DNA of 64,000 bases from Paenibacillus sp. 453mf (GTDB lineage: Bacteria; Bacillota; Bacilli; Paenibacillales; Paenibacillaceae), in contig NZ_FPAC01000001.1 in assembly GCF_900116105.1 (NCBI RefSeq), positions 1,850,862 to 1,914,861 on the forward strand. Reading direction: 5' to 3'. The notes under the pieces are model-generated. The model had not been told where the DNA came from. It saw only the letters and a program-made list of their open reading frames with translations, and did no database searches. Positions 26,025 through 41,229 of this stretch are shown here, piece after piece. Positions within the stretch are counted from its first letter, which is position 1. Each line of letters starts with the position of its first letter. The position numbers and the translations under genes are program-made.

Positions 26025-26061
26025 GAGAACGGCCCTTAGCAAGATATTATGTTAGATGATG
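26025..26061 (-). repeat. E0: truncated cassette element
   Basis: Ends in GTTAGATGATG (26051-26061), like the other elements, and is followed by the same flank GTCAACGCCTTCTCCGAA, but only about 25 bases of element-like sequence (GAACGGCCC...) remain to its left. It marks the sense-downstream edge of the recognisable array. Confidence 0.6.
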
Positions 26062-26155
26062 TCAACGCCTTCTCCGAACTTTCCATCAGAATACTTTAAT
26101 AATCATCCTGATTTCAAAGGTTCGAGCAACGCTGCGATATTAATAAGACAAATCA

Positions 26156-26380
26156 TTACTTTATTTTTATATTCATTTGATTAAGAATCCTACTAAGCAA
26201 ACTCTCAATTCCTGATACATAGCTTAACACATAATTGTAATGGTGATATCTCTTGTAACCACTTAATCTAGTCGAGTCTCCTCTAGATATACCATAAACA
26301 TAGTTTTCTTCTTCAAGAAGCACCTTAGATACTTCCTCACCTATACCTCTCGACGTTCCTGTAATAATGAAATGTTTCAT
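26156..26380 (-). pseudogene. Short-chain dehydrogenase, N-terminal fragment
   Basis: Starts MKHFIITGTSRGIGEEVSK, the NAD(P)-binding TGxxxGIG of SDR enzymes (YueD-like), then stops after about 74 residues (RILNQMNIKIK), where a normal SDR has about 245. The catalytic Tyr/Lys region is missing, so it is a remnant. It abuts the RCC1 fragment, and the interval has mismatched cassette ends (see findings). Confidence 0.75.
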
Positions 26381-26501
26381 CACTTACAATACATTGGCCA
26401 TAATTATTATCACCCACAGCCTTTACCGTTCCGTCAGATTTAACACCAACAGTATGACGCCTACCTGCAACTATAATATTGTTCGATGAAATGGAGTTCA
26501 T
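26337..26501 (-). pseudogene. RCC1-repeat protein, N-terminal fragment
   Basis: ATG 26501 with GGAGATAAAC upstream encodes MNSISSNNIIVAGRRHTVGV followed by KSDGTVKAVGDNNYGQC, one RCC1-type repeat. The frame then runs into the SDR start and ends within it. Full RCC1-like proteins have several repeats, so this is a truncated gene joined to the SDR fragment. Confidence 0.65.
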
Positions 26502-26628
26502 GTTTATCTCCATCAAAAACAAGTTCTATTCGAAAATCTTATCGATTTCACCCATTGAATGAAACATGGGATAGGAAAGTAGAACTTTCTGCTCTTGCTT
26601 CTTCTTGTTACAGGCTTTCCCCTGATTT

Positions 26629-26794
26629 CTTATAACGTTCTTGTATCTACGAACCCGAGAGGCTTAAGGAGCCTAGCGACAGGGTCCGACAGACTTAGCC
26701 TTGCAGAGTTGTGAGCTGAATCCTCTTCTCTGCTTACTACTTCTTGCGAACCAAGGACGTAGCCCACAACGTAGATACAGTGTTTTATAAGATG
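26629..26794 (-). repeat. E1: cassette recombination-site-like element (166 bp)
   Basis: Bounded by CTTATAAC and GTTTTATAAGATG. Outer stem TATCTACG pairs with CGTAGATA. Inner arm begins AACCCGAGAGGCTTAAG and closes with CTTAGCCTTGCAGAGTT. Belongs to the CGAACC sub-type. Its right boundary has two extra T compared with the others. Confidence 0.85.
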
Positions 26795-26819
26795 TTGACG
26801 CCATCTGTGAATAAGCTAT

Positions 26820-27755
26820 TCATCGTAATGCACCATGTGGAAGTACAGCATGCACACCTTTAACTCCATTTACAACTTGAGTAATTCTTAAATCAACCAC
26901 TGTACTTCCTAATGCAATAGCTTCAACACGATTAAGATTAAAAAGTTTACACATAAGATTTAACATCCCATCCATAGCTTGAACCGTAGCTTCATTTAAA
27001 TCTTCATGAAATCCAAAACTAACCCAGCCATTAGGGGTATTAGCTATTGGCATTGAAAGATTCATATCTTTACGTACTGTAAAAGTTAGTTCAACAAACT
27101 CCATAGGACACTCAATCGCTTGGCAACTGATTTCTCCATCCCCTTGTACAGCATGACCATCCCCAACAAAAAAATAGGCACCGTCTACTGAGATGGGAAG
27201 ATATAACACACTTCCTTTGGTTAGCTCTTTACAATCTATATTTCCACCACAAAACCGAGGTGGCCAAGTAATATGGACTCCCCCTTGTTCAGGAGGCATC
27301 GCATATATACCCATGAAAGGCTTGAGACCCACTGAAAATACTTGATCATTTATTGTTGTTTTTCCAATCATAGTTCTATGATCTAGCTCCCACTGAAGAA
27401 CAATCTCTTTGTAATCGGTCAATCCCAGTTTTTGATTTTGCCAATTTGGATATTGACCCGCAGCTGTAAAGCCAAAGGGACCTGGAATGATTTCATTTAT
27501 CCTAACTTCCAATGTCATCCCTTTTTTTGCATCTATTATTTCTATAGGACCACAAAGAGCATGTCCAGAATCAATTTCTTTTCGTCTTTCAAATGGTTTT
27601 ATTCTCTTCCCTTCATTAGACGGTGTGCCCCAACCAGCATCAAATATTGAATATTGAACGGTATCTCCGGAACTAATTGTTAATATAGGATCAAATTCAG
27701 CAGATAAAGAGCCGTATAAATTACTTCGATCTGGATTCACTTTAAATACGGTCAT
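26820..27755 (-). CDS. Acetamidase/formamidase family protein
   Basis: A 311-residue enzyme of the FmdA/AmdA family, hydrolysing small amides to ammonia and acid. Visible family segments are the N-terminal ILTISSGDTVQYSIFDA, GHALCGPIEIIDAKKGMTLE, the metal-site region PPRFCGGNIDCKEL and the following GDGHAVQGDGEISCQAIE. Complete in length. It occupies one cassette between E1 and E2, whose facing ends match. Confidence 0.88.
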   Translation of the reverse strand: MTVFKVNPDRSNLYGSLSAEFDPILTISSGDTVQYSIFDAGWGTPSNEGKRIKPFERRKEIDSGHALCGPIEIIDAKKGMTLEVRINEIIPGPFGFTAAGQYPNWQNQKLGLTDYKEIVLQWELDHRTMIGKTTINDQVFSVGLKPFMGIYAMPPEQGGVHITWPPRFCGGNIDCKELTKGSVLYLPISVDGAYFFVGDGHAVQGDGEISCQAIECPMEFVELTFTVRKDMNLSMPIANTPNGWVSFGFHEDLNEATVQAMDGMLNLMCKLFNLNRVEAIALGSTVVDLRITQVVNGVKGVHAVLPHGALR

Positions 27756-27789
27756 GAAATAACCTCCAATATTATGCTTGCGTCAATTT

Positions 27790-27915
27790 CTTATAACGTT
27801 GTTGTATTTACGACGTCCGACGGAGTCGGATGTGTTCGGCTGCTAAAGCTTCCACGAAATCCCTCTGCCGGACCGAGGGTGTATGCCCGATGCGTGAACA
27901 CAATGTTATAAGATG
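27790..27915 (-). repeat. E2: cassette element (126 bp, shortest)
   Basis: CTTATAAC to GTTATAAGATG. Outer stem TATTTACG/CGTGAACA (one G-T). CGACGTCC sub-type with a reduced first arm: CCGAC GGA GTCGG. Third arm TTCGGC/GCCGGA and final hairpin GGGTGTATGCCC are kept. Confidence 0.85.
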
Positions 27916-28556
27916 CTGGCGTCTTCTTCGAGCAATCTAACCTTTATCTTACCTTTTGATGCCTTTAAAAAATATTCTGTTTTCATGTATAGAGGATGTA
28001 CTGGATAACTAACATCCAAGAGTGTACCTTTGTAGTTTAATTTATTTACCACTATTGCTTGTGGGTATTTTGTAAGGATGTCTCTTTGACGTTCTATCCC
28101 TATATCTAACTTGCCCCAAGCTATAAACACAAAATTATAATTGTCCAATAATTCTCTCGATTTAAACATTAAATGGTTCATTCCGCTTATACTTTTTGCA
28201 TATCTTTTAGCCTTATCACTATTTTTTTCACGAATATTAAATATATTTTCAATATGAATTGAGTATTTATCTGGAAGTGTAATTCCATCTTGATAGTAAG
28301 CCTCCTCGATCATCCGCATAACCTTCTTCATTGTATTATCGGGTACTGTCAGAACCGGCTCGTTAGTTTCATATTCAAAATTTTCGAGCCGTCTATAGAG
28401 GGTTTCATTAATTGGTCTTGCGTCTCCTGGGTTCATCATGACCACTAATCCTATTACCTCCCCAGGACCATTAGTAGAATGAAACTCCGTATGGTGTCTG
28501 AATATCTTTATCTCGTTCTCTATTTTCTTCGAAACAAAGTGAGCGTAAGTTTGCAT
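27906..28556 (-). CDS. DUF1643-like protein
   Basis: About 216 residues from ATG 28556 (AGAGAGGAATATT upstream). The motifs VVMMNPGDARP, FVFIAWGK and YPVHPLYMK correspond to the NPs-, WG- and HPL-containing pattern of DUF1643 proteins. Function unknown. The stop codon is the TAA of the element boundary itself, so the last residues EEDASIL are encoded by the cassette end. Confidence 0.65.
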   Translation of the reverse strand: MQTYAHFVSKKIENEIKIFRHHTEFHSTNGPGEVIGLVVMMNPGDARPINETLYRRLENFEYETNEPVLTVPDNTMKKVMRMIEEAYYQDGITLPDKYSIHIENIFNIREKNSDKAKRYAKSISGMNHLMFKSRELLDNYNFVFIAWGKLDIGIERQRDILTKYPQAIVVNKLNYKGTLLDVSYPVHPLYMKTEYFLKASKGKIKVRLLEEDASIL

Positions 28557-28583
28557 AATATTCCTCTCTCTTTGCACCAATTT

Positions 28584-28749
28584 CTTATAACGATTTTGTA
28601 TCTACGAACCCGAGAGGCTTAAGGGAGCGCAGGCGACCGGGTCCGACGGACTTAGACTCGCAGGGTTATGAGCTGAATCGACACCTCTGCCATCCTCATC
28701 TTGCGAACCAAGGGCAGAGCCCGCAGCGTAGATACGTTGTTATGTGATG
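28584..28749 (-). repeat. E3: cassette element (166 bp)
   Basis: CTTATAAC to GTTATGTGATG. Outer stem TATCTACG/CGTAGATA. CGAACC sub-type: AACCCGAGAGGCTTAAG/CTTAGACTCGCAGGGTT, with GTCCGACGGAC inside and GGGCAGAGCCC at the end. Confidence 0.88.
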
Positions 28750-28782
28750 GATCGACCTTCTCTGAAATATCTGCGTTTTCAT

Positions 28783-29238
28783 TTATACTCCAGTTTTCCT
28801 TTCCAAGTTCAATACGTGACTTGCTTTATCTATTCCTTCTGCTCTTAAGAAACCAATATTTCTATAAAACCTATCAGCAATTGGGTTCTCAGTATATAAA
28901 GTTAATATCCTAAAATACTTTCTTGCTTCATCTTCAATAATTCTTAAAAGTTTACTCCCTACTCCTTTGCTTCTGTGTATCGGTGAAACATATAAGTGTC
29001 TCACTCGACCAACATCATTGAACTTGAGATAGGGATCAATATTCAAACCACATACCCCTATGACTTCCTTTTCAATTATTGCTACAAATAACGATTCTCC
29101 AAACTTATTAAATCTATTATCTCCTTGCATGTATTCATCAAGTAATTTCTGAACAAATTTATATCCCTCAGACATACTCTCATCCAACAACAAATAAAAA
29201 TTATACTCTTCTAGACAAGTAACTCTTTCAATATGCAT
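28783..29238 (-). CDS. GNAT acetyltransferase
   Basis: 151 residues from ATG 29238 (GAGGTGAACACTACG upstream); the frame is open to 29301 inside E4 but that start has no ribosome site. Acetyl-CoA motif VSPIHRSKGVGSKLLRIIED and C-terminal TENPIADRFYRNIGFLRAEG are clear. One cassette between E3 and E4, with matching ends (GTTATGTGATG and TTTCACATAAC). Confidence 0.88.
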   Translation of the reverse strand: MHIERVTCLEEYNFYLLLDESMSEGYKFVQKLLDEYMQGDNRFNKFGESLFVAIIEKEVIGVCGLNIDPYLKFNDVGRVRHLYVSPIHRSKGVGSKLLRIIEDEARKYFRILTLYTENPIADRFYRNIGFLRAEGIDKASHVLNLERKTGV

Positions 29239-29279
29239 CGTAGTGTTCACCTCATTTATTACATGGTTTACACATCTTT

Positions 29280-29472
29280 CACATAACATTCTTGTATTCA
29301 CGAACCCGAAAGCTTAAGCTGCAGATCAATCAAGCACAGCGATTAATTCTTGCCGGGTGGCTCAGCCACTTAGCCTTGCAGGGTTGTCCGGCTAATTCCA
29401 CTTCCTCGCCTCTCAACTTTTGCCGGACCGAGGAGCGAACCTGACAAAACGTGAACATGTTGTTATAGGATG
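29280..29472 (-). repeat. E4: cassette element (193 bp)
   Basis: CACATAAC to GTTATAGGATG. Outer stem TATTCACG against ACGTGAACA. CGAACC sub-type in the first arm (AACCCGAAAGCTTAAG ... CTTAGCCTTGCAGGGTT), but third arm GTCCGGC/GCCGGAC as in the other sub-type: a mosaic. Confidence 0.85.
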
Positions 29473-29489
29473 ATGGTGTCTTCCCCGAA

Positions 29490-29972
29490 TCAGCTAATAA
29501 TATATTCCATCCTTCTACTTCTAGTCTTCATTCCTATATTCTTATAAAATCCAATAGCTGATTGGTTAAATTCGGCTACAGTTAAATCTATACTTTGAAC
29601 TTTAAATTCCCTTCCTTTTTTTATTACGAATTCAAATAGATACTTACCAATACCTTGTCCTCGGTATTTCTCGTTCACTGTTAGTTCATTCACAAATAGG
29701 GTTTTTCGATCTTACATGATTAAGCTTCCAGCAATTGTTTCGATCTTTAGTATTGTATAAGCTATTACCTCTCTATTATTTGTTTCCTCTACAACATAAA
29801 TATAATGATTATCTTTGTTTAGAAGTTCTTGATAATACTTTTCTACAAGTGGTCTATCCGTCTGCATATATAGATCATTTCGAGCATTAGAGTGTAATTC
29901 TTGTATTTGTTTTATCAGTCCTAAAAGAGAATCAAAATCTGTTATTTCTGCATTTCGAATAGCCAGCTTCAT
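29490..29972 (-). pseudogene. GNAT acetyltransferase broken by one in-frame TAA
   Basis: From ATG 29972 (GGGGGTATTC upstream) the frame reads MKLAIRNAEITDFDSLLGLI to ...ETIAGSLIM, then a single TAA at 29712-29714, then in the same frame DRKTLFVNELTVNEKYRGQG, IGKYLFEFVIKK and NQSAIGFYKNIGMK to the stop at 29490. Both halves are good GNAT sequence with no frameshift. Either a recent nonsense mutation or read-through. Facing cassette ends match (GTTATAGGATG/TTTCCTATAAC). Confidence 0.85.
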
Positions 29973-30014
29973 GAATACCCCCAAAGATACTTATTATGTT
30001 CATTACACCAATTT

Positions 30015-30187
30015 CCTATAACGTTACTGTATCCACGACGTCCCACCGACTTAAGCCACGTTAGGGGCGGCCGCGATGCGGTTAGTCGGTGCGGATGTGT
30101 CCGCCTGATTCCACTTCCCTGCCAATTCCCTTCGGGCTGACCGAGGGAGCGTCAGGACCCGAATCTTGGATATAATGTTATCTGACG
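30015..30187 (-). repeat. E5: cassette element (173 bp)
   Basis: CCTATAAC to GTTATCTGACG. Outer stem TATCCACG/TTGGATA. CGACGTCC sub-type: CCACCGACTTAAG/GGTTAGTCGGTG, with CCGCGATGCGG inside. Confidence 0.88.
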
Positions 30188-30194
30188 TAAACCT

Positions 30195-30914
30195 CTACTG
30201 CGAATTAGCTATAATCTTCTTTGTTAAGTTAAACTCATGACGGCATTCGTAGTAATAACTTTTGAGTTTATATCCCCCAGCTTTAAATACAGGCTTATGT
30301 TGATACCACACTATAATTAGCGTTCCTTCAAAAAGGATTCTACGAAGGATATAAACTATTCTGTTAAAGAGAACGCTTCTATTTTGAGCAAATTTATGAA
30401 GTGTTTCGGATTGAAACTGAACATGTTTCTCCTCATCACTTAAAATCTGATTACATAAATCTATTAATACTTCTGACTTTGTAGATTTTTGCGAGGCTTT
30501 ATAGTACAACTTAGCAATGATCTCAGCAGTTAATAGAACAATGACTGATTGTTCTAGACTCGCATATCGACGTAATCTTCTAAATACATTGTCCACCCAA
30601 TGTCTACGAAGGAGTGGGATTCCCTGTACCTTCATAAATCTGCCTAGATCTCTAGCGTGCCTCTGTTATTCTTTAATGAATTCTATAAGTGCTTCATAGT
30701 AATCCTGATCTTGTGTCTGGTGTACATATTCTTGCGCACGTTTAATTAGATGTTTACCTTCAGAGTTTTCTCCTAATTGAAACTGTTGAATTGACTTAAT
30801 GATTATTTCTCTTTCATTAGTTGTTAATTTATAGTTGTCATCCCAATGAATATATTTGAGGTTTTGATTATTTCTTCGATAATATTGCACCCATTTCGAG
30901 AAAGTGATATTCAT
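30195..30914 (-). pseudogene. Ferritin-like helical protein broken by one in-frame TAA
   Basis: ATG 30914 opens MNITFSKWVQYYRRNNQNLK to ...YYEALIEFIKE, then one TAA, then QRHARDLGRFMKVQG continues in the same frame to 30195. The join FIKE-x-QRHARDLGRF would read naturally with Glu (GAA to TAA). Pairs such as E-QRHA and LSDEEKHVQFQSETLHKF are the Glu-x2-His spacing of ferritin-like di-iron proteins. About 239 residues when restored. Cassette ends match over nine bases (GTTATCTGACG/TGTCAGATAAC). Confidence 0.7.
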
Positions 30915-30945
30915 TATTTGCTCCTAAAATGTAATAGGTTTATGT

Positions 30946-31119
30946 CAGATAACGTTCCCGTATTCATGAACCCGAAAGGCTTAAGGGAGCGTTTAGAGAT
31001 CGGGTGGCTCTGCCAGTTAGCCTTGCAGGGTTGTCTACCTGAATCCGCTTCTTCGAAAGTGCCGCGGGCAGACCCAGGGAGCGTCAGCGACCGCGGTATG
31101 AATACATTGTTATGCGATG
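30946..31119 (-). repeat. E6: cassette element (174 bp)
   Basis: CAGATAAC to GTTATGCGATG. Outer stem GTATTCATG/TATGAATAC, i.e. both arms changed relative to TATTCACG/CGTGAATA. CGAACC sub-type in the first arm. Confidence 0.88.
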
Positions 31120-31153
31120 TTCATTGACTTCTTTGAATAATTAATCAATTCTT

Positions 31154-31600
31154 TTAAGTCATAAGACGACGAACCACTTCACCGTCAATTAATTCTTTAC
31201 TTACTCTTTCAAATCCCAGAGATTCATATAGATTACCTGCAACTGTATTCTCGGGTCTATGTCCAATCATAATTCTTTGGCAGTTCAATGTTTCTTTCAT
31301 TAATTCTATCAATTCTTTCATCGATTCTTTTCCATGCCCTTTTCCCTGGTATCTTTCATCAATCATCAGTGCTGGAATCCAATAGTTACCCTCATTATCC
31401 GGTATCTTACAATACACAATAAAACCTATAATATCCGCACTAAAATAGATCGCCATCGGTTCAAAGTCAGTGACATACTTAGATTCAGCAATCCAGTATA
31501 CTATTGGGGCTGGGAATACTTTCTTTTGATCTTTTGTTACTTCCAATTGGGTGCAGTTATACCAGTTATTAACCGATACAGGCTTCAAACTAATTGCCAT
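31154..31600 (-). CDS. GNAT acetyltransferase with leader peptide
   Basis: 148 residues; acetyl-CoA motif DERYQGKGHGKESMKELIEL and the PENTVAGNLYESLGFERVSK end resemble diamine/spermidine-type GNATs. Ribosome site AGGAGGAATCTAAA. Unlike its neighbours it has 176 bases between its start and the element, holding a 18-residue ORF and mutually exclusive hairpins that can hide its ribosome site, so translation may be inducible. Substrate unknown; a drug is possible given this control. Confidence 0.87.
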   Translation of the reverse strand: MAISLKPVSVNNWYNCTQLEVTKDQKKVFPAPIVYWIAESKYVTDFEPMAIYFSADIIGFIVYCKIPDNEGNYWIPALMIDERYQGKGHGKESMKELIELMKETLNCQRIMIGHRPENTVAGNLYESLGFERVSKELIDGEVVRRLMT

Positions 31601-31605
31601 TTTAG

Positions 31606-31669
31606 ATTCCTCCTAGTCAAGTTACACAGAGGAATCACTTAATCGTTCCTCTGTGTTAAATCAAAACAC
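31606..31669 (-). promoter_or_regulatory. Putative translational attenuator
   Basis: On the minus strand four segments follow one another: GTGTT, AACACAGAGGAA (31646-31657), TTCCTCTGTGT (31624-31634) and the ribosome site GAGGAAT (31606-31612). Segment 1 can pair with 2 and 3 with 4 (site hidden), or 2 with 3 over 11 bp (site free). This is the logic of erm and cat leaders. Confidence 0.55.
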
Positions 31670-31712
31670 CTCTTAAATCACTGTTGGTTTTACTCTTATT
31701 CGTATTATTCAT
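31656..31712 (-). CDS. Leader peptide, 18 aa
   Basis: AAGGAG 9 bases before ATG 31712 and a short frame MNNTNKSKTNSDLRGVLI ending in TAA inside the first arm of the hairpin. Its position over segments 1-2 of the attenuator suggests that a ribosome stalled here would free the downstream ribosome site. Confidence 0.55.
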   Translation of the reverse strand: MNNTNKSKTNSDLRGVLI

Positions 31713-31775
31713 ATTACATCACTCCTTTCATGCTATTTGATTATTCATATTTTATTAGACTATTTCAATGAATTT

Positions 31776-31967
31776 CGTATAACGTTCGTGTATTCACGAC
31801 GTCCTACCACCTTAAGCCCGAATGGCGGCCGAGATGCGGTTAGGTGGGGGGATGTGTCCGGCCGATTCCGCTTCCTGCTACTGAAAATCCTTCTTAGAGT
31901 TCACTTCTAACTTCTTGCCGGACCGAGGGCCGAATGGCCCGAAGCGTGAATATGGTGTTATAAGATG
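31776..31967 (-). repeat. E7: cassette element (192 bp)
   Basis: CGTATAAC to GTTATAAGATG. Outer stem TATTCACG/CGTGAATA. CGACGTCC sub-type: CCACCTTAAGCCCGAATGGC and GGTTAGGTGG; third arm GTCCGGC/GCCGGAC; last hairpin GGGCCGAATGGCCC. Confidence 0.9.
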
Positions 31968-31990
31968 TGGGGGCCATCTCGAATATACTT

Positions 31991-32464
31991 TCAAATGTTT
32001 TTCTTGTTCATTAATTCATCATCAAATATTCTCTTTAATTGACTGCTCTCAATAATATATTTCACTTCTCCTCTTGAAACATAGATATTCTCTTTATCAT
32101 ATTGAATTCTTACTTCTGATCTATCCTTTAATCTAATTGCAATTCCTGATACAATGCTTGGATTTGACGTATCTTTCCAACTTGTTTCTTTTGGAGATAA
32201 AGAATTAAATGTTGTAATGATTCTGTGAATCTGGTCTTTACTTAGATCTATATCAATATGTTTAAAAGTCGAGTTAATAAGAACAACTTTACTCATTCTA
32301 ATACTATCAATATCCTGTTCTTCTATCTTCTGGTGCAAAGATAGTTGTTCCATAAATTTCTCTTCTGAATCGTCTGTTAAAAACGAGTAAAGAACAACAG
32401 CAGTAAATATCATGAATACAGCAAGCAAACCTATTATTGCTTTGTTATTGATTGTATTCATCAC
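31991..32464 (-). CDS. Membrane-anchored protein of unknown family
   Basis: 157 residues: an N-terminal helix (KAIIGLLAVFMIFTAVVLYSFL) then an extracytoplasmic domain with alternating beta strands (KVVLINSTFKHIDIDLSKDQ, SGIAIRLKDRSEVRIQYDKE). No lipobox. Not recognised. One cassette between E7 and E8 with matching ends. Confidence 0.7.
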   Translation of the reverse strand: MMNTINNKAIIGLLAVFMIFTAVVLYSFLTDDSEEKFMEQLSLHQKIEEQDIDSIRMSKVVLINSTFKHIDIDLSKDQIHRIITTFNSLSPKETSWKDTSNPSIVSGIAIRLKDRSEVRIQYDKENIYVSRGEVKYIIESSQLKRIFDDELMNKKNI

Positions 32465-32476
32465 TTGCCTCCATTT

Positions 32477-32604
32477 CTTATAACGTTTCTGTATTCACGA
32501 CGCTCGACTTTGTTGGGTGTGTCCGGTTGATTTCACTTCCTTGCTATAGCCTCTGTCGGACCAAGAGCAAAAGCGACGAAGCTTGAATATGTTGTTATAC
32601 GAAG
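32477..32604 (-). repeat. E8: cassette element (128 bp, reduced)
   Basis: CTTATAAC to GTTATACGAAG. Outer stem TATTCACG against GCTTGAATA. The first arm has shrunk to a short CGACTTTGTTGGGTG, and the third arm is TCCGGTTGA...TGTCGGACC. A shortened but recognisable copy. Confidence 0.8.
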
Positions 32605-32679
32605 CATACTTGAATTAGCCCACACTCTATTCATTCGATAAAAAAGACATCATGAAGTACAAACTAATAAATCATGATG

Positions 32680-32976
32680 TCACTTATATTCTTGTTTAAT
32701 TAATCGTCTTGATTGGTGTAAAAAAGTAACCAATTCGATATTGGTTTCTGTAATTCTATAAATAATTCGATAACTCTTATAAATCTTTTCTCTTACTTCG
32801 TCTCTATTTAATTCAGGTACTAGTCGTCCCTTATAAGGAAAATCAATTATTGTACTCGTTTCATAAATCAATTCATTAACAAACTCTCTGGCTTGTTCAA
32901 TTGAATCTTGTTTAATGTACTCATAAATGATTTCAAGATCTTTTAATGACCTTGGTGACCATACTAATTCAGCCAT
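32680..32976 (-). CDS. ParE/RelE-family toxin
   Basis: 98 residues starting MAELVWSPRSLKDLEIIYEY and ending in FLHQSRRLIKQEYK; REKIYKSYRIIYRI is the core strand of ParE/RelE toxins. It overlaps the antitoxin gene by 13 bases. ParE-like members poison gyrase, RelE-like members cut mRNA; the choice cannot be made here. As cargo it would favour keeping the array. Confidence 0.9.
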   Translation of the reverse strand: MAELVWSPRSLKDLEIIYEYIKQDSIEQAREFVNELIYETSTIIDFPYKGRLVPELNRDEVREKIYKSYRIIYRITETNIELVTFLHQSRRLIKQEYK

Positions 32977-34339: not shown

Positions 34340-34372
34340 AATATTTTTCTCCTTTCAGTTTTGCGCCGGTTT

Positions 34373-34570
34373 CATCTAACGTTCCCGTATTCACGACGTC
34401 CCACCGACTTAAGGGACCCGCCAGGGTCCGGCCGCGATGCGGTTAGTCGGTGCGGATGTGTCCGGCTGTATCCACTTCCCTACAGCTGAAATGCTTCATC
34501 GAATCCACATCTAACTTCTGCCGGACCGAGGGCCGAATGGCCCGATGCGTGAATATAATGTTATATGCTG
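34373..34570 (-). repeat. E10: cassette element (198 bp)
   Basis: CATCTAAC to GTTATATGCTG. Outer stem TATTCACG/CGTGAATA; first arm CCACCGACTTAAG/GGTTAGTCGGTG with inner hairpin GGACCCGCCAGGGTCC and CCGCGATGCGG; third arm GTCCGGC/GCCGGAC; last hairpin GGGCCGAATGGCCC. Confidence 0.9.
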
Positions 34571-34581
34571 TGGCTGGCTTC

Positions 34582-35232
34582 TTAGATAATTCCCTCAAAT
34601 ATCTTATTAATAGATTCCCTATCATAATTTAATATCCAGTCGTTGTACTTAATAAAAATATTCTTTAGTACTGAAGTAGAATTGGAAACTACATCACATC
34701 CACGATCGTCGTAAATATGAAAAATAATGCCTTTACCAAGATTGATGAAGAAAACATCATGTTTAATTGATGGCTTAGTTCCCAAATCCTTATTACAGAT
34801 AGCTTTAATTAAATTTAGATAATCTAAATCACTTACTTTACAAGCTATTTGAAATCGATATGTTTTATTGTCCTCGTCGGGAATTTCATCTGGTTCTGCA
34901 AAGATATCCGGAATTACATTTAGCTTTAGATTCCATAGAATTTGTCTATTCTTTATGTATCTTCGGTATAGGTTTACCTTTTTAATTTGGTTTTTTAATT
35001 TATAAGCGAAATAGGCATTTGTAACGAGTAAGAGATCATCATCTTTTACAAACAATTCTTTAAACAATTCAATTGATCTACTATATACTCGATCCATGTA
35101 CTGATTTTTATCTACATCGTATAAATGTGGATCGCCAAGCTCAAATCGAATACCTATATCCCAGCTATAAAATAATGGCGGTCTTAGTATCAAACTTGGA
35201 AAATGATCTTTCATATACTGATCAACTGACAA
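34582..35232 (-). CDS. DUF3885 protein
   Basis: 216 residues with the DUF3885 pattern LFYSWDIGIRFELGDP near the start, YDVDKNQYMDRVYSRSIELF next and the closing IFHIYDDRGCDVVSNS. These proteins occur widely, often in accessory DNA; function unknown. One cassette between E10 and E11; ends match except one G-T pair. Confidence 0.82.
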   Translation of the reverse strand: MSVDQYMKDHFPSLILRPPLFYSWDIGIRFELGDPHLYDVDKNQYMDRVYSRSIELFKELFVKDDDLLLVTNAYFAYKLKNQIKKVNLYRRYIKNRQILWNLKLNVIPDIFAEPDEIPDEDNKTYRFQIACKVSDLDYLNLIKAICNKDLGTKPSIKHDVFFINLGKGIIFHIYDDRGCDVVSNSTSVLKNIFIKYNDWILNYDRESINKIFEGII

Positions 35233-35268
35233 TTCGATTCACCTCTTTAATTTGCTTTCCAGCCATTG

Positions 35269-35419
35269 CACATAACGTTTCTGTATTCACGACGCGAGCC
35301 GGCCTTAGATAGCTCTTATCTTAGGCCGGCTCGTGTGTCGTCCGAGTTATCTTCCATGATTATACATCGGACGACCAAGGGGTGTAAGCCCCGTAGCGTG
35401 AATATTATGTTATGCGATG
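35269..35419 (-). repeat. E11: cassette element with replaced first arm (151 bp)
   Basis: CACATAAC to GTTATGCGATG. Outer stem TATTCACG/CGTGAATA, last hairpin GGGGTGTAAGCCCC. The usual first arm is replaced by CGAGCCGGCCT...AGGCCGGCTCG around TAGATAGCTCTTATCTT (35295-35333), the same hairpin as the chromosomal one at 18496; third arm GTCGTCCG/CGGACGAC. Confidence 0.88.
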
Positions 35420-35447
35420 CCTCGGTCATCTTCGGTTTACTTTCATA

Positions 35448-35918
35448 TTAGTCCTTTTTTAATTGCAATTTATAAATCTTTAATATATATTCTTTATCTT
35501 CTGAGTCATCATTATGTCCTTCTATTGGTAACCCATTATGAAATGGGGACCCTAAAAAATCATCAAGTATTTCTCTTGGATTATTCAATATTCGTATTTC
35601 ACAGCTAAATGGTAATTTCTTGTTTATGTCAGATATCAGATTGAATCTTAATTGACTTGCCATAATATCAAACCATAAATATAAATACATACCTAGATTT
35701 GAACTAGAGCTTTCTATTTGATCTTTCCGATTCTGTATAACTTTATTTATAAATTCGTTGAAATCGTCAGTTGTAATTTGATTAATCAATTCAGGAGAAA
35801 TCGAGATTCTCCACATATTTGTTTCAATTTCTTCTTGAAGATCAGCTTCAGAGGAACCGATATAAATTAAATCGTTTATTATATCTTGAAGATCTTCAAA
35901 ATACTGTTCCTTATTCAT
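35448..35918 (-). CDS. Hypothetical cassette protein
   Basis: 156 residues, acidic at the start (YFEDLQDIINDLIYIGSSEA), with a hydrophobic middle (NLGMYLYLWFDIMASQLRFN) and a C-terminal LGSPFHNGLPIEGHNDDSED. Predicted soluble. No family recognised; it recalls small immunity-type proteins. One cassette between E11 and E12, the pair with the weakest end match (two differences). Confidence 0.7.
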   Translation of the reverse strand: MNKEQYFEDLQDIINDLIYIGSSEADLQEEIETNMWRISISPELINQITTDDFNEFINKVIQNRKDQIESSSSNLGMYLYLWFDIMASQLRFNLISDINKKLPFSCEIRILNNPREILDDFLGSPFHNGLPIEGHNDDSEDKEYILKIYKLQLKKD

Positions 35919-35952
35919 TTGTTTTTCCTTCTTTCATACAATACCGAGGTTT

Positions 35953-36104
35953 CATATAACGTTGGTGTATTCGCGACGTCCATTCCCCATAGATAGCTCT
36001 TATCTTGGGGAATGGATGTATCTGCCCGATTCTTCTTCCTCGAAAACACTCCTGGCAGATCAAGGGACGAATGGCCCGCAGTGTGAATATTTTGTTATAT
36101 GAAG
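35953..36104 (-). repeat. E12: cassette element with replaced first arm (152 bp)
   Basis: CATATAAC to GTTATATGAAG. Outer stem TATTCGCG/GTGTGAATA. First arm CCATTCCCC/GGGGAATGG (35980-36015) carries the same TAGATAGCTCTTATCTT loop as E11 on a different stem. Third arm ATCTGCC/GGCAGAT. Confidence 0.88.
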
Positions 36105-36132
36105 GATATGCCGTTTCGAACAACTCACAAAA

Positions 36133-36561
36133 TTACTTATTGCCTTCGTTAAAATATGTTATTTCATATCCATCTATTAATCTTCTTAATCCATCTTTAT
36201 AGTAAGGCATTAATTGTTCAGCCTTCTCTATATCAATCCAAGCTATTTCAGAAATTTCATTAGGTCTAACTATTTCTTCATTTCCACCGATTATCTCACC
36301 TTTAAATGTTATAAATATTACATGTTCTCTTTTTTTCGGAAATTTACATTCATTTACTGCCACTATTCCATGAACTTTAATATCTAGTCCAGTTTCTTCT
36401 TTAGCTTCCCTTACTGCTGCTTGGTCTAATGATTCTTCTCTTTCAACAGCCCCGCCTGGAAGTGACCATCGGTCACTATAATCATCTACATTCCTTACCA
36501 TTAATATTTTGGAATTGGTTGGATCAGTAATTAAGGAATAAGCTACATCGACTCTGATCAT
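36133..36561 (-). CDS. Nudix hydrolase
   Basis: 142 residues with a complete Nudix box, GGAVEREESLDQAAVREAKE followed by ETGLD, at about residues 36-60. Such enzymes cut nucleoside-diphosphate-linked substrates using Mg. A G-x-x-W end is not evident; substrate unknown. One cassette (E12-E13) with ends matching over eleven bases (GTTATATGAAG/CTTTCATATAAC). Confidence 0.9.
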   Translation of the reverse strand: MIRVDVAYSLITDPTNSKILMVRNVDDYSDRWSLPGGAVEREESLDQAAVREAKEETGLDIKVHGIVAVNECKFPKKREHVIFITFKGEIIGGNEEIVRPNEISEIAWIDIEKAEQLMPYYKDGLRRLIDGYEITYFNEGNK

Positions 36562-36601
36562 TATGTTTGACTTCCCTTCTGATTTAGATCTGAATATCTT
36601 T

Positions 36602-36792
36602 CATATAACGTTCTTGTATTCACGACGTCCCACCACCTTAAGCCCGAAGGGCGGCCGCGATGCGGTTAGGTGGTCCGGATGTGTCGGGCCGAATATGCTT
36701 CCCCGCTACTGAGATGCCTCTGCGAATAACATCGTACTTCTGCCGGACCGAGGGCAGGATGGACCGAAGCTTGAATATGGTGTTATACGCTG
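36602..36792 (-). repeat. E13: cassette element (191 bp)
   Basis: CATATAAC to GTTATACGCTG. Outer stem TATTCACG against GCTTGAATA; CCACCACCTTAAG with GCCCGAAGGGC inside, closing GGTTAGGTGG; third arm ends TGCCGGACC. Confidence 0.9.
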
Positions 36793-36830
36793 CCCTTGCC
36801 CCCTTAAGTGATTATCATATTGTTCTTTAT

Positions 36831-37262
36831 TCATTCTATTAGGAGGTAATTATCAATGTGTTGATCTTTAAATACGGTTTTATTGTTCGTTACTGCATCT
36901 ATCAATCTTTCTACTGTAAAATTTGAAATCGGTCTTGGTAAATTATCAATATCAAAAAATCCATATTCATCTATTTCTTTATTATCAACTTCTATGCGAC
37001 CAACATATCCATCTGACTTAAAAGTATAAATGTATCCATTCCGATGAGACATAAAATAGATACCTGATAAATCCATTTCATTGACTTCAATATTGACTTC
37101 TTCCTTCAGTTCTCTTCTTTAACCATCCCACACTGATTCACCTTCTTCTACTACTCCGCCTAGTACAGACTATTGTTTCTTTCCATATGTTTGATGAACC
37201 AATAGCACTCTATTATGCTCATCAATAATGATAATTCCTGAGGCATCATGGGATCGCTTCAT
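36831..37262 (-). pseudogene. Nudix hydrolase with two in-frame stops
   Basis: Reading from ATG 37262 gives MKRSHDASGIIIIDEHNRVL and LVHQTYGKKQ, a TAG, SVLGGVVEEGESVWDG, a TAA, then RRELKEEVNIEVNEMDLSG and so on to 36831. The Nudix box is evident across the stops, with Trp (TGG to TAG) expected at the first. One frame throughout, so only nonsense changes separate it from an intact 143-residue gene. Cassette ends match (GTTATACGCTG/TTGCGTATAAC). Confidence 0.8.
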
Positions 37263-37301
37263 TTTGTACCTCTTTCCTTTTATTTACTATAGCAAGGGTT
37301 G

Positions 37302-37492
37302 CGTATAACGTTGTTGAATTCACGACGTCCCTCCACCTTAAGCCCCAACGGGGCGGCCGAGATGCGGTTAGGTAGAGGGATGTGTCCGGCTGATTCGCTT
37401 CCTCATAATGAAATGCCTCTGCGAATCCGCATCTAACTCCGGCCGGACGGAGGGCCGAATGGCCCGAAACGTGAATATGTTGTTATAAGATG
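37302..37492 (-). repeat. E14: cassette element (191 bp)
   Basis: CGTATAAC to GTTATAAGATG. Outer stem AATTCACG/CGTGAATA; CTCCACCTTAAG with GCCCCAACGGGGC inside, closing GGTTAGGTAGAG; last hairpin GGGCCGAATGGCCC. Confidence 0.9.
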
Positions 37493-37515
37493 TTGGCGCC
37501 TTCCTCGTGTAGACC

Positions 37516-38122
37516 TTAAACGATTTCCTTTATTCTTTGATAATTCTCTTTACTAAGTGAGAACTTAAGTAAATCAGAATTATACCCTACTCTTCTAAAG
37601 ACATCGATTATGTTGGCAATTCTATCTTCAAGGTTTCTATTCAATTCGTTTCCAATTGAATTTCCAAAGGTAATACTGAAATAGTCGTGCCCTCAAGAAT
37701 GACTTGCTTGATGTATGGCCAAATAATTGGACCACTCTCCCATATACCTGTTTCTGGGACATATTCAAAATCAGAAGTTGGACATATATTTGCAATTTCC
37801 ACTTAATATCATTGATAAGTACACGAGCAAAAGTCCAAGTATTATTAAAAGGATCTACAAAATCTATAACAGCCCTTGATTTAGTAGAAAACCAGTCAGC
37901 AACATTTGTAATCTCAGACGCTTGCGACTCTGATAAGAAATCTTCAAATATAAATACTACTTTCTCTACATCTCCGGGATTCTGCAAAATTACATCAATA
38001 TCGTTTGGTTTAATTGAAGTACAACCATTTATTGCTGTTGCAGTCGAACCTCCGATAACATAGGGAATGTCTTTTTGATTTATTCTTCTTGCCACTTCAA
38101 TAAGTGCATTAATAATGTTCAT
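37516..38122 (-). pseudogene. Nucleotidyltransferase-like protein with frameshifts
   Basis: From ATG 38122 the frame gives MNIINALIEVARRINQKDIP and YVIGGSTATAINGC..KPNDIDVIL, the GS..D-x-D pattern of nucleotidyltransferases of the AbiEii/MNT type. Near 37800 the coding signal moves frame (PTSDFEYVPETGIWESGPII, then VILEGTTISVLPLEIQLETN) and again near 37640 (NRNLEDRIANIIDVFRRVG to EIV at 37516). At least two indels. Ends match (GTTATAAGATG/TTTCTTATAAC). Confidence 0.7.
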
Positions 38123-38155
38123 TGAGATTTGATCCTTTCGCACTTGCACCAATTT

Positions 38156-38345
38156 CTTATAACGTTCTTGTATTCACGACGTCCTACCACCTTAAGCCCG
38201 AAGGGCGGCCGCGATGCGGTTAGGTGGTGGGATGTGTCCGGCTGAAATACTTCCCTGCTGCTGAAATGCCTCTTCGATTCCACTTCTAACTAATGCCGGA
38301 CCGAGGGCCGAATGGCCCGATGCGTGAATATGGTGTTATCGGATG
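38156..38345 (-). repeat. E15: cassette element (190 bp)
   Basis: CTTATAAC to GTTATCGGATG. Outer stem TATTCACG/CGTGAATA; ACGTCC/GGATGT; CCACCTTAAG with GCCCGAAGGGC and CCGCGATGCGG, closing TTAGGTGG; third arm GTCCGGC/GCCGGAC; last hairpin GGGCCGAATGGCCC. The most regular copy. Confidence 0.92.
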
Positions 38346-38387
38346 CATCCGACTTCTCGAACAACTCATAAATAGATCTCATTATTA

Positions 38388-38756
38388 TTATTTTATGGTC
38401 CTGAATTGCCCTTTTTCGTCTGACAATGTAGAGATTAATTCTTCGTTTTTTACTTCAATAAGATATTCCCTGTATACATGATCTCTGCCCCCATATCTTT
38501 CATACCAATCAACGATCTTTTTATTATGTTCTTTGTCACTTCTTACAAGCCGTTCAATTTCTTCATATTTTTCATAGCTATCATATTCCCAAATAGCAAA
38601 TATTTCAGTTGTATTCTCTGAATGTTGAGCCATCCATCTTCCTACTAGACGAGCTCCATTCTTCAACTGATTTGGTAAATTGGTTTCAATGAAATGTTTA
38701 TTAAAGATGTCAACAAAGTCACTGTTGACGATATAAAACTTTCTGCGATAAAACAT
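38388..38756 (-). CDS. NIPSNAP-like protein
   Basis: 122 residues, ferredoxin-like fold expected: MFYRRKFYIVNSDFVDIFNK, TNLPNQLKNGARLVGRWM, TEIFAIWEYDSYEKYEEIE. This combination is seen in NIPSNAP-family proteins, which have no agreed bacterial function. One cassette (E15-E16) with matching ends (GTTATCGGATG/TTTCCGATAAC). Confidence 0.7.
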   Translation of the reverse strand: MFYRRKFYIVNSDFVDIFNKHFIETNLPNQLKNGARLVGRWMAQHSENTTEIFAIWEYDSYEKYEEIERLVRSDKEHNKKIVDWYERYGGRDHVYREYLIEVKNEELISTLSDEKGQFRTIK

Positions 38757-38815
38757 TGTGTAGCCTCCTGTAATTTAGATGTATTGTTCTTGGACCTTTC
38801 GCACTTCGGATGTTT

Positions 38816-38986
38816 CCGATAACGTTGTTGTGTTCCCGACGCCTTACCGTCCTAAGGCTCCGTAGGAGCCGGGTCCGCTTGCGGACTTGGGCGGTGCAGG
38901 TGTGTCTGCTGAATATGCTTCCTCGAAATCCCTCTTGCAGACCAAGGGGCGTTAGCCCCGCAGTGGGAACACGGTGTTAGCTGATG
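38816..38986 (-). repeat. E16: cassette element (171 bp)
   Basis: CCGATAAC to GTTAGCTGATG. The outer stem is TGTTCCCG/TGGGAACA, changed on both arms. First arm ACCGTCCTAAG/TTGGGCGGT with GGCTCCGTAGGAGCC and GTCCGCTTGCGGAC inside; third arm TCTGC/GCAGA; last hairpin GGGGCGTTAGCCCC. Confidence 0.9.
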
Positions 38987-39007
38987 TTATTGCCTTCTTC
39001 GACCAAC

Positions 39008-39670
39008 TTACACTAAGGGTTTGATCTGAAATCTCTTTACTGTTACAGGATCTATAAATTCAATATCCCTTATATTTCTCGACTCAAATTCTTCCATGAT
39101 TCTTAAAAAGATTCGTCCAATTAATATACTGTCCCCTAATGCATCATGTCTTCTAAGATCCTTATCGTAAATCTTATAGTAGTGAATCAAATAGTCTGTC
39201 CATATAATGTCCTTTACTTCTGGGTGTAAATAGGAAAATAATGCTTTAGTATCTATGCATGGAGTCGTTATCATTGGTAAATGGTTTCTGACACATTCAT
39301 TCTTTAGTAAAGGTAAATCAAATTCATATCCTGCATGAGTAACTAAAATACATTCTTTAGTAAATTTCACAAAGTCGTTATATACTTCTTGTAATACTGG
39401 CGCGCCTTCTATATCCGTATTATAAATTCCAGTGAATCGTTCAACCGCTTCTGGTATTGGTTTTGGAGATTTAATATATGTATTGAACGTTTTTCTTTCT
39501 TGTATAATATTGTTCTCTATTATGACGGCACCAATTTGAGTAATAAATTCTGTCTCATGATTTATTCCTGTTGATTCAAAATCAAACACACAAAACTTCT
39601 GTGAATGAATGTTTTTAATTGATAATCCTGAAACAAGATAATCTATATCCGAAATATTCTTAATCTCCAT
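39008..39670 (-). CDS. DnaQ-like 3'-5' exonuclease
   Basis: 220 residues from ATG 39670 (GGGGGG 9 bases upstream; a TTG at 39679 is possible). Exo I FCVFDFESTGIN with the Asp/Glu pair, Exo II ECILVTHAGYEFDLPLL and Exo III RRHDALGDSILIGR give a complete DEDDh set. A nuclease acting on DNA or RNA 3' ends; partner unknown. One cassette (E16-E17) with matching ends (GTTAGCTGATG/TTTCAGCTAAC). Confidence 0.9.
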   Translation of the reverse strand: MEIKNISDIDYLVSGLSIKNIHSQKFCVFDFESTGINHETEFITQIGAVIIENNIIQERKTFNTYIKSPKPIPEAVERFTGIYNTDIEGAPVLQEVYNDFVKFTKECILVTHAGYEFDLPLLKNECVRNHLPMITTPCIDTKALFSYLHPEVKDIIWTDYLIHYYKIYDKDLRRHDALGDSILIGRIFLRIMEEFESRNIRDIEFIDPVTVKRFQIKPLV

Positions 39671-39707
39671 TGATTCCAACCCCCCAATTAAAATCTTGCA
39701 GTAATTT

Positions 39708-39873
39708 CAGCTAACGTTACTGTATCTACGAACCCGAGAGGCTTAAAGGAGCGCTAGCGACTGGGTCCAACGGACTTAGCCTCGCAGGGTTGTCTGCTGA
39801 GTGACCTCCTTGAAATGCCTCTTGCAGACCAAGGGCCGAACGGCCTGTAGCGTAGATACTTTGTTATCGGATG
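39708..39873 (-). repeat. E17: cassette element (166 bp)
   Basis: CAGCTAAC to GTTATCGGATG. Outer stem TATCTACG/CGTAGATA; AACCCGAGAGGCTTAAA/CTTAGCCTCGCAGGGTT; third arm GTCTGC/GCAGAC; last hairpin GGGCCGAACGGCCT. Confidence 0.9.
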
Positions 39874-39882
39874 TTAATGCCT

Positions 39883-40425
39883 TCATTGAGATGCCTGAAT
39901 CATGTAATTAAAGTGTTTCATAGTGTTCTTGAATATAGAATGTTGCTTTGCTTCAATTTCCCTTACTAAATTTCCCGCTGTATTCTTAGCCAGTATGTAT
40001 TCCTCTTCTGTGATGTGATTACTATTTAAAGCTTCTTCTAGCTCATCCTCATCCTTCATATAAAAGTCACCGTTAGGAAAAACGATAACATCTAGATAAA
40101 GATCTTCCCAATATCGAATACCCTCCTCGCTTATACCGTTGCTCTTGGTTATATCGAAATACCATTGAACTATTTCTTTCTTCTTATTAAGCATTGTAGT
40201 AACACAATAATTTGCTTCCTCAGGAAAGTGCTGCATCCAATAATAACCTTCATCGACTAAACAGATTTCTTGATCCGCAATTCTTCTTATTAAGGGTTCC
40301 GTTACTTCATGGATACTGATTAAGGTAATATGCCCTTTGAAGACTGCCTCATCGAAAAACCTGCTTACAAAATCATTCTTTATTACTCGATGCCAGTCTA
40401 ATCGATCTGCATGTTTTCTTTTCAT
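39883..40425 (-). CDS. DUF402 protein
   Basis: 180 residues from ATG 40425 (AGGAGGTGTGAA). DUF402/FomD-like features: DEGYYWMQHFPEEANYCVTT, IVQWYFDITKSNGI, and the acidic YLDVIVFPNGDFYMKDEDEL motif that binds metal in this family of nucleotide phosphatases (relatives include B. subtilis YgaC). One cassette (E17-E18) with matching ends (GTTATCGGATG/TTTCCGATAAC). Confidence 0.87.
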   Translation of the reverse strand: MKRKHADRLDWHRVIKNDFVSRFFDEAVFKGHITLISIHEVTEPLIRRIADQEICLVDEGYYWMQHFPEEANYCVTTMLNKKKEIVQWYFDITKSNGISEEGIRYWEDLYLDVIVFPNGDFYMKDEDELEEALNSNHITEEEYILAKNTAGNLVREIEAKQHSIFKNTMKHFNYMIQASQ

Positions 40426-40473
40426 TTCACACCTCCTAATTACTTTCATATTTTATTTTCTTTGCATTAATTT

Positions 40474-40639
40474 CCGATAACGTTCTTGTATCTACGAACC
40501 CTCACTGGTTAAGGCGCTATAGCGCCGGGTCCGACGGACTTACCCAGTGCAGGGTTGTCTGCTGAATATCCTTCGTCGAAATTCCTCCTGCATACCAAGG
40601 GGCGTAAGCCCCGAAGCGTAGATACGATGTTAGAGGATG
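40474..40639 (-). repeat. E18: cassette element (166 bp)
   Basis: CCGATAAC to GTTAGAGGATG. Outer stem TATCTACG/CGTAGATA; first arm CACTGGTTAAG against CTTACCCAGTG, a both-sided change from GAGAGGC/GCCTCGC; inner hairpins GGCGCTATAGCGCC and GTCCGACGGAC; last hairpin GGGGCGTAAGCCCC. Confidence 0.92.
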
Positions 40640-41166
40640 TTATTGCCTTCTTCGAATTTACTATTTAATTGATCTATTAAGTTTGTTACTTCTCTTGGTG
40701 TTTTAAGTATTATTATTTTCTTTACTTTTTCATATTTTTGTAGTTTTTCGAGTACTCCTGGTCTTTTTTGTTTTCTGAAATTCCATACCCATTTAATGAA
40801 CTCCCAATCTAATTGCTCAGGACATCCTTCATTTAAATCAGGTCTCGTTCTTCTATGGTATTTAATTCTTCGTTTAATGACTCTAAAAGTAGTTATCCAC
40901 GGAGGTAAATCGAGGAAAATTATTGTATCTGCTCTCGAAATTCTAATATCTAATGTCCTATTATAGTTCCCATCAATAATCCATTCATCATTTAGAATGA
41001 GCTTTCTTTGAAATTCATCCCATTCGTGATTAGGGGTTGCAATCCATCCAGGTTTCCAATAATAGGAATCTAAATGGTACAAAGGTAATCCTAAAACTTC
41101 TGAGAGTTTACTTGAAAGTGTAGATTTCCCTGATCCTCCAGATCCAATTATCATAATTCTCTTCAT
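40630..41166 (-). CDS. P-loop nucleoside-kinase-like ATPase (FlaR-like)
   Basis: 178 residues: Walker A MIIGSGGSGKSTLSSKLSEV, then LPLYHLDSYYWKPGWIATPN, EWIIDGNYNRTLDIRIS and IIFLDLPPWITTFR, the layout of topology-modulation (FlaR)/adenylate-kinase-like proteins. It is the sense-first cassette. Its TAA stop is the boundary triplet of E18 and its last residues EEGNNIL come from the conserved cassette flank. The facing half-site at 41222 matches. Confidence 0.85.
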   Translation of the reverse strand: MKRIMIIGSGGSGKSTLSSKLSEVLGLPLYHLDSYYWKPGWIATPNHEWDEFQRKLILNDEWIIDGNYNRTLDIRISRADTIIFLDLPPWITTFRVIKRRIKYHRRTRPDLNEGCPEQLDWEFIKWVWNFRKQKRPGVLEKLQKYEKVKKIIILKTPREVTNLIDQLNSKFEEGNNIL

Positions 41167-41221
41167 TCGTGTTCTCCTGATTATTAATGGTTTAAAATCA
41201 CTTCAAATGTTGCAATAATTT

Positions 41222-41229
41222 CCTCTAAC
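41222..41229 (-). repeat. Orphan boundary box at sense-first end of the array
   Basis: CCTCTAAC preceded by TTT, matching the GTTAGAGGATG of E18 across the last cassette, but no structured element follows it. This is where an attI-like site or a degraded element would lie. Confidence 0.55.

Follow-up and report, generated by a model that had tools for sequence, protein, structure and literature searches.

An integrase-less cassette array in Paenibacillus and its probable assignment to an integron-like class with I2-less tyrosine recombinases

An array of gene cassettes in the genome of Paenibacillus sp. 453mf (G000) is described here; it occupies positions 26025-41229, on the minus strand, of a 64,000-nucleotide stretch of contig NZ_FPAC01000001.1 (the window), and consists of 18 complete attC-like elements and one truncated element between mostly single-gene cassettes. 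Our reading, to which we give a probability of about 0.9, is that this is an integrase-less array of an integron-like system, likely moved by a tyrosine recombinase that lacks the I2 insertion of integron integrases (IntI) and is encoded beside sister arrays. Cassette boundaries, complementary cassette ends, covarying stems, an attI-like site and cassettes shared between species with breakpoints at G/TT are all read from the DNA, and on this evidence from sequence the system appears to be a new class within the integron kind that would work like an integron, recombination itself being predicted. As neither I2 nor the usual core consensus is found in it, it is filed as a new class and not as a strict integron. 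In itself the window array is a CALIN (cluster of attC sites lacking an integrase), with 18 attC-like sites (of a new type, not scored with the IntegronFinder model) and no integrase found. Since no integrase was found in G000, the array is probably a fixed remnant, unless the enzyme is supplied from elsewhere, and cassette movement in the host strain is unlikely.

Cassette ends, element fold and exchange of cassettes

The two ends of a circular integron cassette together make up its R box. If the R box is built in this way here, the 5' flank of an element is expected to match where its own cassette begins rather than where the next one does. For window cassettes 2-17 the 5' flank was the reverse complement of the own cassette start at 76 of 80 positions, as against 54/80 for the match within the same element and a mean of 52.5 after shuffling (maximum 68 in 100,000 shuffles). 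Thirteen of the 16 cassettes are complementary at all five positions, the others being cassettes 8, 9 and 13; cassette 18, which lies outside the 80-position count, fails in the register found. The same comparison was made for 329 consecutive cassettes from the window and related loci (derived from 474 element matches, 422 with intact cores; the 52 without xAAC/GTTx at the expected offset and gaps of more than 4 kb were dropped) and gave an own-cassette match of 1774/1974 (0.899) against 0.648 when shuffled (maximum of 5,000 shuffles 0.672), 209 of the cassettes being fully complementary as opposed to 26 for the other flank of the same element. Outside the Paenibacillales, 18 pairs matched at 94 of 108 positions (0.870; shuffled maximum 0.778). 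The 363 cassettes delimited in the window and related loci, overlapping loci kept in, have a median length of 824 bp.

The elements have the approximate layout TAAC-A-NNN-TATTCACG ... CGTGAATAC-NNNAAC-GTTA, with a variable and branched middle. Stem positions in the 18 complete elements (E1-E18) are paired in 87.7% of cases against 77.6% after shuffling (none of 500 shuffles as high), with the structure having been drawn from these elements and then scored on them, and 16 of the 32 pairs have changed on both sides. In 96 elements from ten other loci, aligned to the covariance model and hence biased towards its structure, 90.4% of the stem is paired and 24 of 31 pairs have changed on both sides. 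The L''/L' pairing predicted from covariation is present with at least 7 of 8 pairs in 294 of 406 elements (458 unique elements minus 52 left out). The L stem has no bulge in its best register; a 1-nt bulge improves the pairing in 106 of the 406, a conserved bulge position not having been sought. The core boxes RYYYAAC and GTTRRRY fit only 90 and 89, respectively, of the 406 elements, so that the consensus of integrons is not followed; the usual form is GTTATNNG, a C stands directly before GTT in the element consensus, and the spacer between the R and L stems is asymmetric (4 vs 7 nt).

Cassette 14 (30022-30952) shares 96.9% identity with a cassette of genome G011, and cassette 7 (35960-36608) shares 96.5% with one of G001, the match running in both cases from G/TT to G/TT. 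The flanks of these cassettes (200-400 bp upstream and 20-220 bp downstream) show an identity of 0.55-0.58 against a background of 0.54 (standard deviation 0.03), and the host genes compared with G011 and G001 are 72% (gnd, in pieces in G001) and 67-69% (the Xer-like gene) identical. From 88 homologous cassette pairs, some of them repeated via overlapping loci, 13 were hand-picked for examination: both flanks lay in the background range in 11, and in the other two one flank was shared (0.94 and 0.96). It should be noted that this comparison is between different species, with one genome per species, and not between sister strains.

An earlier note on this DNA, made from its letters alone, had proposed that these are recombination cassettes, and the complementarity of the ends (76/80), a test independent of the fold, agrees with that proposal. 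The note had also called for a comparison of relatives, looking for exchange of whole intervals exactly at G/TT, which was seen between species for cassettes 7 and 14, and for a search with a covariance model, which found elements in 48 of 59 genomes (G000 included) and in at least 164 of 246 genomes and at least 29 of 46 genera of the Paenibacillales.

Content and state of the window array

The 18 complete elements span 40632-26633 on the minus strand and measure 115-187 bp from TAAC to GTTA, or 127-199 bp with flanks of 6 bp; their G+C content is 53% as against 33% in the remainder of the cassettes. All 18 cassettes are co-oriented, and the content of each is a single gene, in some cases interrupted, or a small pair of genes. 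Pfam cargo comprises DUF402, a DnaQ-like exonuclease, NIPSNAP, Nudix, DUF3885, NIF3, a ParE toxin with partner open reading frame (ORF), three GNATs and FmdA/AmdA; matches to AAA/kinase-like, DUF6036 and DUF1643 families were below the cut-offs, and in cassettes 8, 12 and 14 the proteins had no match in the Pfam scan. The features are as follows.

41229..41258, minus: attI-like site, GGATATTTACGAAGTTCAGAGATAAAAGAG; its last G is part of the GTTA that opens cassette 1
41229, minus: predicted start of cassette 1, GTTAGAGG; reverse complement of the E1 5' flank, the sequence upstream fitting the Paenibacillales attI consensus
40481..41228, minus: cassette 1, 178 aa P-loop/kinase-like protein (Pfam, under cut-off) and E1 (40478-40632)
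39715..40480, minus: cassette 2, DUF402 and E2 (39712-39866)
38823..39714, minus: cassette 3, DnaQ-like exonuclease (RNase_T) and E3 (38820-38979)
38163..38822, minus: cassette 4, NIPSNAP-like and E4 (38160-38338)
37309..38162, minus: cassette 5, DUF6036-like nucleotidyltransferase (under cut-off) and E5 (37306-37485)
36609..37308, minus: cassette 6, Nudix-like by motif (not Pfam-scanned), two in-frame stops, and E6 (36606-36785)
35960..36608, minus: cassette 7, Nudix and E7 (35957-36097); shared with G001
35276..35959, minus: cassette 8, 156 aa, no Pfam match, and E8 (35273-35412)
34380..35275, minus: cassette 9, DUF3885 and E9 (34377-34563)
33253..34379, minus: cassette 10, NIF3 family in two ORFs, and E10 (33250-33403)
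32484..33252, minus: cassette 11, ParE-type toxin, 60 aa partner ORF (no Pfam match) and E11 (32481-32597)
31783..32483, minus: cassette 12, 157 aa, no Pfam match, and E12 (31780-31960)
30953..31782, minus: cassette 13, GNAT and E13 (30950-31112)
30022..30952, minus: cassette 14, two small ORFs, no Pfam match, and E14 (30019-30180); shared end to end with G011
29287..30021, minus: cassette 15, GNAT, one in-frame stop, and E15 (29284-29465)
28591..29286, minus: cassette 16, GNAT and E16 (28588-28742)
27797..28590, minus: cassette 17, DUF1643-like (under cut-off) and E17 (27794-27908)
26636..27796, minus: cassette 18, acetamidase/formamidase and E18 (26633-26785), R'' irregular (TAAAAC)
about 26040..26060, minus: E19, truncated, with only the 5' half left (R'' and the beginning of L''), at the distal end of the array, read from the sequence
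C9:438422-443858 of G000: second array (L051), 8 element matches
C9:1679450-1680818 of G000: third array (L052), 3 element matches; attI-like site at L052:9360

The account given in the earlier note, of 18 minus-strand elements of 126-198 bp with GNATs, Nudix, a toxin-antitoxin pair and DUFs between them, describes the array well, and its end of the array at 41229 is the exact position of the boundary G of the attI-like site. Its observation that an interval nearly always has one gene or one toxin-antitoxin pair agrees with the content of the 18 cassettes, except that some of the cargo genes are interrupted (by two in-frame stops in cassette 6, by one in cassette 15 and by division over two ORFs in cassette 10), which indicates that the array is partly decayed. 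The flank of E19 is unlike the cassette start after E18 (GTTATAAG), so the last unit is damaged. The two further arrays of G000, found with the covariance model, lie on different strands; no attI-like site was found within 2.5 kb before L051.

The integrase beside sister arrays

In G000 none of the window ORFs or of the recombinase genes of the genome is a convincing integron integrase, a search of ten genomes including G000 with TIGR02249 gave nothing above cut-off, and a tblastn search for integrase remnants, covering the window and the two other array loci of G000, gave a best E of 0.5, which is chance level. Beside arrays in related genomes, on their upstream side and co-oriented with them, lies the gene of a tyrosine recombinase of about 380 aa, intact in some genomes and broken in others. 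Intact or broken, it is present in at least 86 of the 246 genomes of the order, and elements were found in 85 of these 86 (the exception being G044; the 85 is a hand count from the element and integrase genome lists) as against 79 of the 160 others (Fisher p 2e-18), all genome counts being lower bounds as at most 11 element and 7 integrase candidates were scored per genome. A second set of loci was fetched by integrase sequence alone and comprises the best 80 of at least 560 confirmed loci. Around the integrase in 45 of these, 220 of 232 element matches lie downstream on the integrase strand (nine of the other 12 are downstream on the other strand and three upstream), with 663,278 bases searched upstream and 385,240 downstream. 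Chains of cassettes called without the model gave a similar picture, those of three or more cassettes being found downstream of the integrase at 23 of 81 loci, with none upstream and none in reversed sequence, and those of two or more links at 35 downstream as against 1 upstream and 9 in reversed sequence. Ten of the 23 chain loci lie outside the Paenibacillales, in Clostridium sp. CS001, Acididesulfobacillus, one metagenome-assembled genome (MAG) each of Clostridia and Peptococcaceae, and records of Bacteroidota, Spirochaetales, Atribacteria, Nitrospirae, Dehalococcoidia and Altarchaeum. Single cases among them are uncertain, since several of the chains comprise just three links, begin a long way from the integrase or have elements of uneven length, and MAG records may carry binning errors. 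Related integrase loci occur in other phyla and in five archaeal MAGs among the best 80.

In 38 of 42 assessable loci cassette 1 is predicted to begin no more than 260 bp from the end of the integrase gene, 31 of them exact (of the 80 loci, L219 was passed over and 37 lacked an element downstream; these positions have no shuffled control). In 25 Paenibacillales loci this attI is a small palindrome with a spacer, approximately GGTATTTACGAAGTTCGTAAATTAGATG^TTA, and a site of this type is kept at window position 41229 and before the third array of G000. In 22 of the 80 cases the contig ends within about 310 bp past the integrase match, which repeats in the arrays would explain. Very large arrays of about 20-70 kb, in the size range of superintegrons, adjoin the integrase gene at G064:C1:2185923-2257359 and G088:C1:4793873-4816180, the gene of G088 being in two pieces. 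In G138:C1 there are four integrase-like matches (27469, 2175624, 4596750 and 4614279), two with identical scores; three of the four cover only residues 103-372 or thereabouts and may be other recombinases or copies of one. Of the 55 phage records that match the integrase none does so over 80% or more of its length, and of 669 plasmid records four do. A near full-length relative is carried by the Chryseobacterium plasmid NZ_CP041688.1 (L259, 8035-25048), where small, mostly co-oriented genes, a gene for a group II intron and only one chain link follow downstream; this is possibly a plasmid-borne array of the class in Bacteroidota.

Control by LexA was looked for in the form of the Gram-positive type box only. 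GAACN4GTTC occurs upstream of 2 of 75 integrases and in 3 of 1400 control windows, a looser LexA-type pattern upstream of 7 of the 75 (control windows were scored for the strict pattern only), and SOS control is thus not a general feature among these 75. Perfect boxes (GAACATATGTTC and GAACGTATGTTC) stand upstream of the clostridial integrases L200 and L204, so SOS control may exist in that clostridial branch only.

Both by sequence and by Foldseek of the model, the closest solved structure to the array integrase is IntI4 (PDB 2a3v). In 52 aligned rows the catalytic R, K, H, R and H are invariant and Y is present in at least 90%, and a C-terminal SPLD-like motif is common to the array integrases and IntI. 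The IntI-specific I2 insertion is missing: the region, which measures 100 aa in a cyanobacterial IntI and in IntI2 and IntI3, has 58-61 aa in all 52 aligned members (the I2-containing insertion being about 40 aa), and the structure model has no extra helix. When the gap was measured from a motif pattern, seven of 80 rows fell outside 58-62 aa (L189, L222, L224, L238, L241, L249 and L259), three of which (L222, L238 and L241) are in the alignment that gives 58-61 aa throughout. With Xer as outgroup, array integrases and IntI group together in a tree of 52 chosen rows, in which only three groups are sampled, the Xer branches are long enough to call for caution and IntI is represented by class 2, class 3 and one cyanobacterial sequence (L254 is near-identical to class 3 IntI3). 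Four integrases were scanned with protein models and scored 192-202 bits with TIGR02249, short of the integron-integrase cut-off of 265, and 212.8-224.4 bits with the XerA-type model NF040815, one of the four being above the cut-off of 220.

Fold matches of the whole integrase cover residues 96-379 only and the N-terminus was therefore predicted separately. HARP (PF07443) matches 19 of 38 N-terminal domains at E values up to 5 (the lowest being 1.3e-4; the first member gives no match), an N-terminal profile finds the HARP domain of SMARCAL1 (4o66) at E 4.5e-4, and fold matches of the model include UvsW and XPB, the resemblance being weak. HARP is a branched-DNA-binding domain, and the HARP of SMARCAL1, the damage-recognition domain of XPB and the N-terminal domain of UvsW sit on helicases, whereas the HARP-like domain here is fused to a tyrosine recombinase. 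We regard the array integrase as a tyrosine recombinase whose N-terminal domain, judged from these matches, appears to resemble HARP.

Mechanism, alternatives and relation to known integrons

In the mechanism that we propose, the I2-less recombinase would insert and excise single-gene circles at the G/TT of the predicted hairpin attC-like sites, each circle re-forming an R box from its own two ends. The core domains of the integrase would bind the folded strand, the HARP-like domain probably reads the hairpin or junction in place of the I2 helix of IntI, and the asymmetric spacer may set the choice of strand instead of extrahelical bases. Taken further, and with rather less assurance than the reading of the array itself, we favour the view that this is a second great integron class, occurring across many phyla and in some archaea and close to universal in Paenibacillus, whose integrase has a HARP domain, lacks I2 and captures hairpin cassettes; integron recombination would then either have no need of I2 or have had its hairpin problem solved independently through a domain that reads DNA junctions. 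For the strand step alone it is possible, if somewhat doubtful, that the I2-less integrase recombines double-stranded attC in the fashion of Xer, with the hairpin a by-product of the inverted repeat and the HARP-like domain otherwise employed. Any tyrosine recombinase site needs an inverted repeat, and Xer enzymes have no I2 (our own comparison; also stated in the passages used of PMC7790495), but the covarying pairs extend to internal helices beyond the R and L boxes, which duplex recognition would not require.

It is very unlikely that the arrays are served in trans by a chromosomal Xer-like recombinase (336 aa, L010 type), the presence of the neighbouring integrase being incidental. All 36 genus members searched do contain a relative, 44-51% identical to the L011 query, including those without an array-integrase match, but the gene lies away from all three arrays of G000, element-rich genomes (G048 and G053 among them) have no match to it at E 1e-40, and it is the array integrase that adjoins attI and tracks the arrays. 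The L010-type enzyme had been the first suspect and was set aside as lying far from arrays and being unmatched at this threshold in element-rich f7 genomes. L010 itself lies at G000:C9:1495848-1496738 and its paralogue L011 (47% identical) at G000:C5:125648-126571; L011 has relatives at 71-76% identity in a few genus members and in other families. An ordinary CALIN of proteobacterial type, acquired horizontally and with a classical IntI acting on it, would share the general layout of the cassettes, and the C before GTT corresponds to the G beside AAC, on the other strand, in most attC sites (as given in the part of PMC2727003 consulted); the lack of any match above the TIGR02249 cut-off in the ten genomes, associated integrases without I2, the poor fit of GTTRRRY (89/406) and the presence of elements in at least 29 of 46 genera of the order make this extremely unlikely. 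Least probable of all is that the elements function as structured RNAs, whether regulators, terminators or processing sites, and that the genes between them were acquired independently. The element stems covary, and some structured RNAs are repeated, but such RNAs do not predict that a flank should match across the gene to its own cassette start rather than to its own other flank, nor an attI-like site before cassette 1, nor exchange at G/TT, and no Rfam family reached the gathering score in the window.

We therefore return to the integron-like class and its relation to systems already described. With canonical IntI integrons, mobile and chromosomal (VchIntIA/IntI4, 2a3v), it has in common co-oriented single-gene cassettes, attC sites with R''/L''/L'/R', ends complementary across the cassette, an attI by the integrase gene, the G/TT boundary and the SPLD-like motif. 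It differs in an integrase without the I2 insertion and with a HARP-like N-terminal domain, in the integrase gene lying upstream of the array in the same direction, and in attC sites whose internal stems are branched, whose L stem in its best register has no bulge and of which few fit GTTRRRY. The reverse integrons of spirochaetes (Treponema) have a canonical IntI. Their integrase gene, like that described here, is not divergent from the cassettes (PMC9668308, in the portion on reverse orientation). Archaeal integrons (Ghaly et al., 2022, PMC9668308, as excerpted) are alike in having attI directly downstream of the integrase and in a patchy distribution over phyla, but their integrases were selected for, and reported with, the IntI-specific additional domain, which those of the present class lack. 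For the integron-like subgroup of tyrosine recombinases, compared here by description only, the insertion was deemed essential for integron function (Smyshlyaev et al., 2021, PMC8138268); the sections of that paper drawn on here describe no cassette arrays for members without I2. The Limnochorda pilosa integron and the scattered CALINs of Firmicutes share a Bacillota host and integrase-less clusters with our array, and in the relevant part of the IntegronFinder 2.0 paper (PMC9024848) one complete integron and a few CALINs make integrons 'extremely rare' in Firmicutes, as opposed to elements in at least 164 of 246 genomes of one order here.

The elements of the Paenibacillales were probably overlooked because search tools require the I2 domain and attC of the known type, and among the matches listed in the open-licence PMC literature (preprints being outside its scope) no report of integrons in Paenibacillus was found. 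Integrons had been thought very rare in Gram-positive bacteria; the present arrays point to a large reservoir of cassette genes there, of which we found no survey in the open literature. Two papers (PMC7790495, PMC4792948) see in the I2 helix the innovation that took attC recombination from double to single strands, and the authors note the absence of an ancestor sequence. With an I2-less group that has hairpin-type cassettes, this question becomes directly testable.

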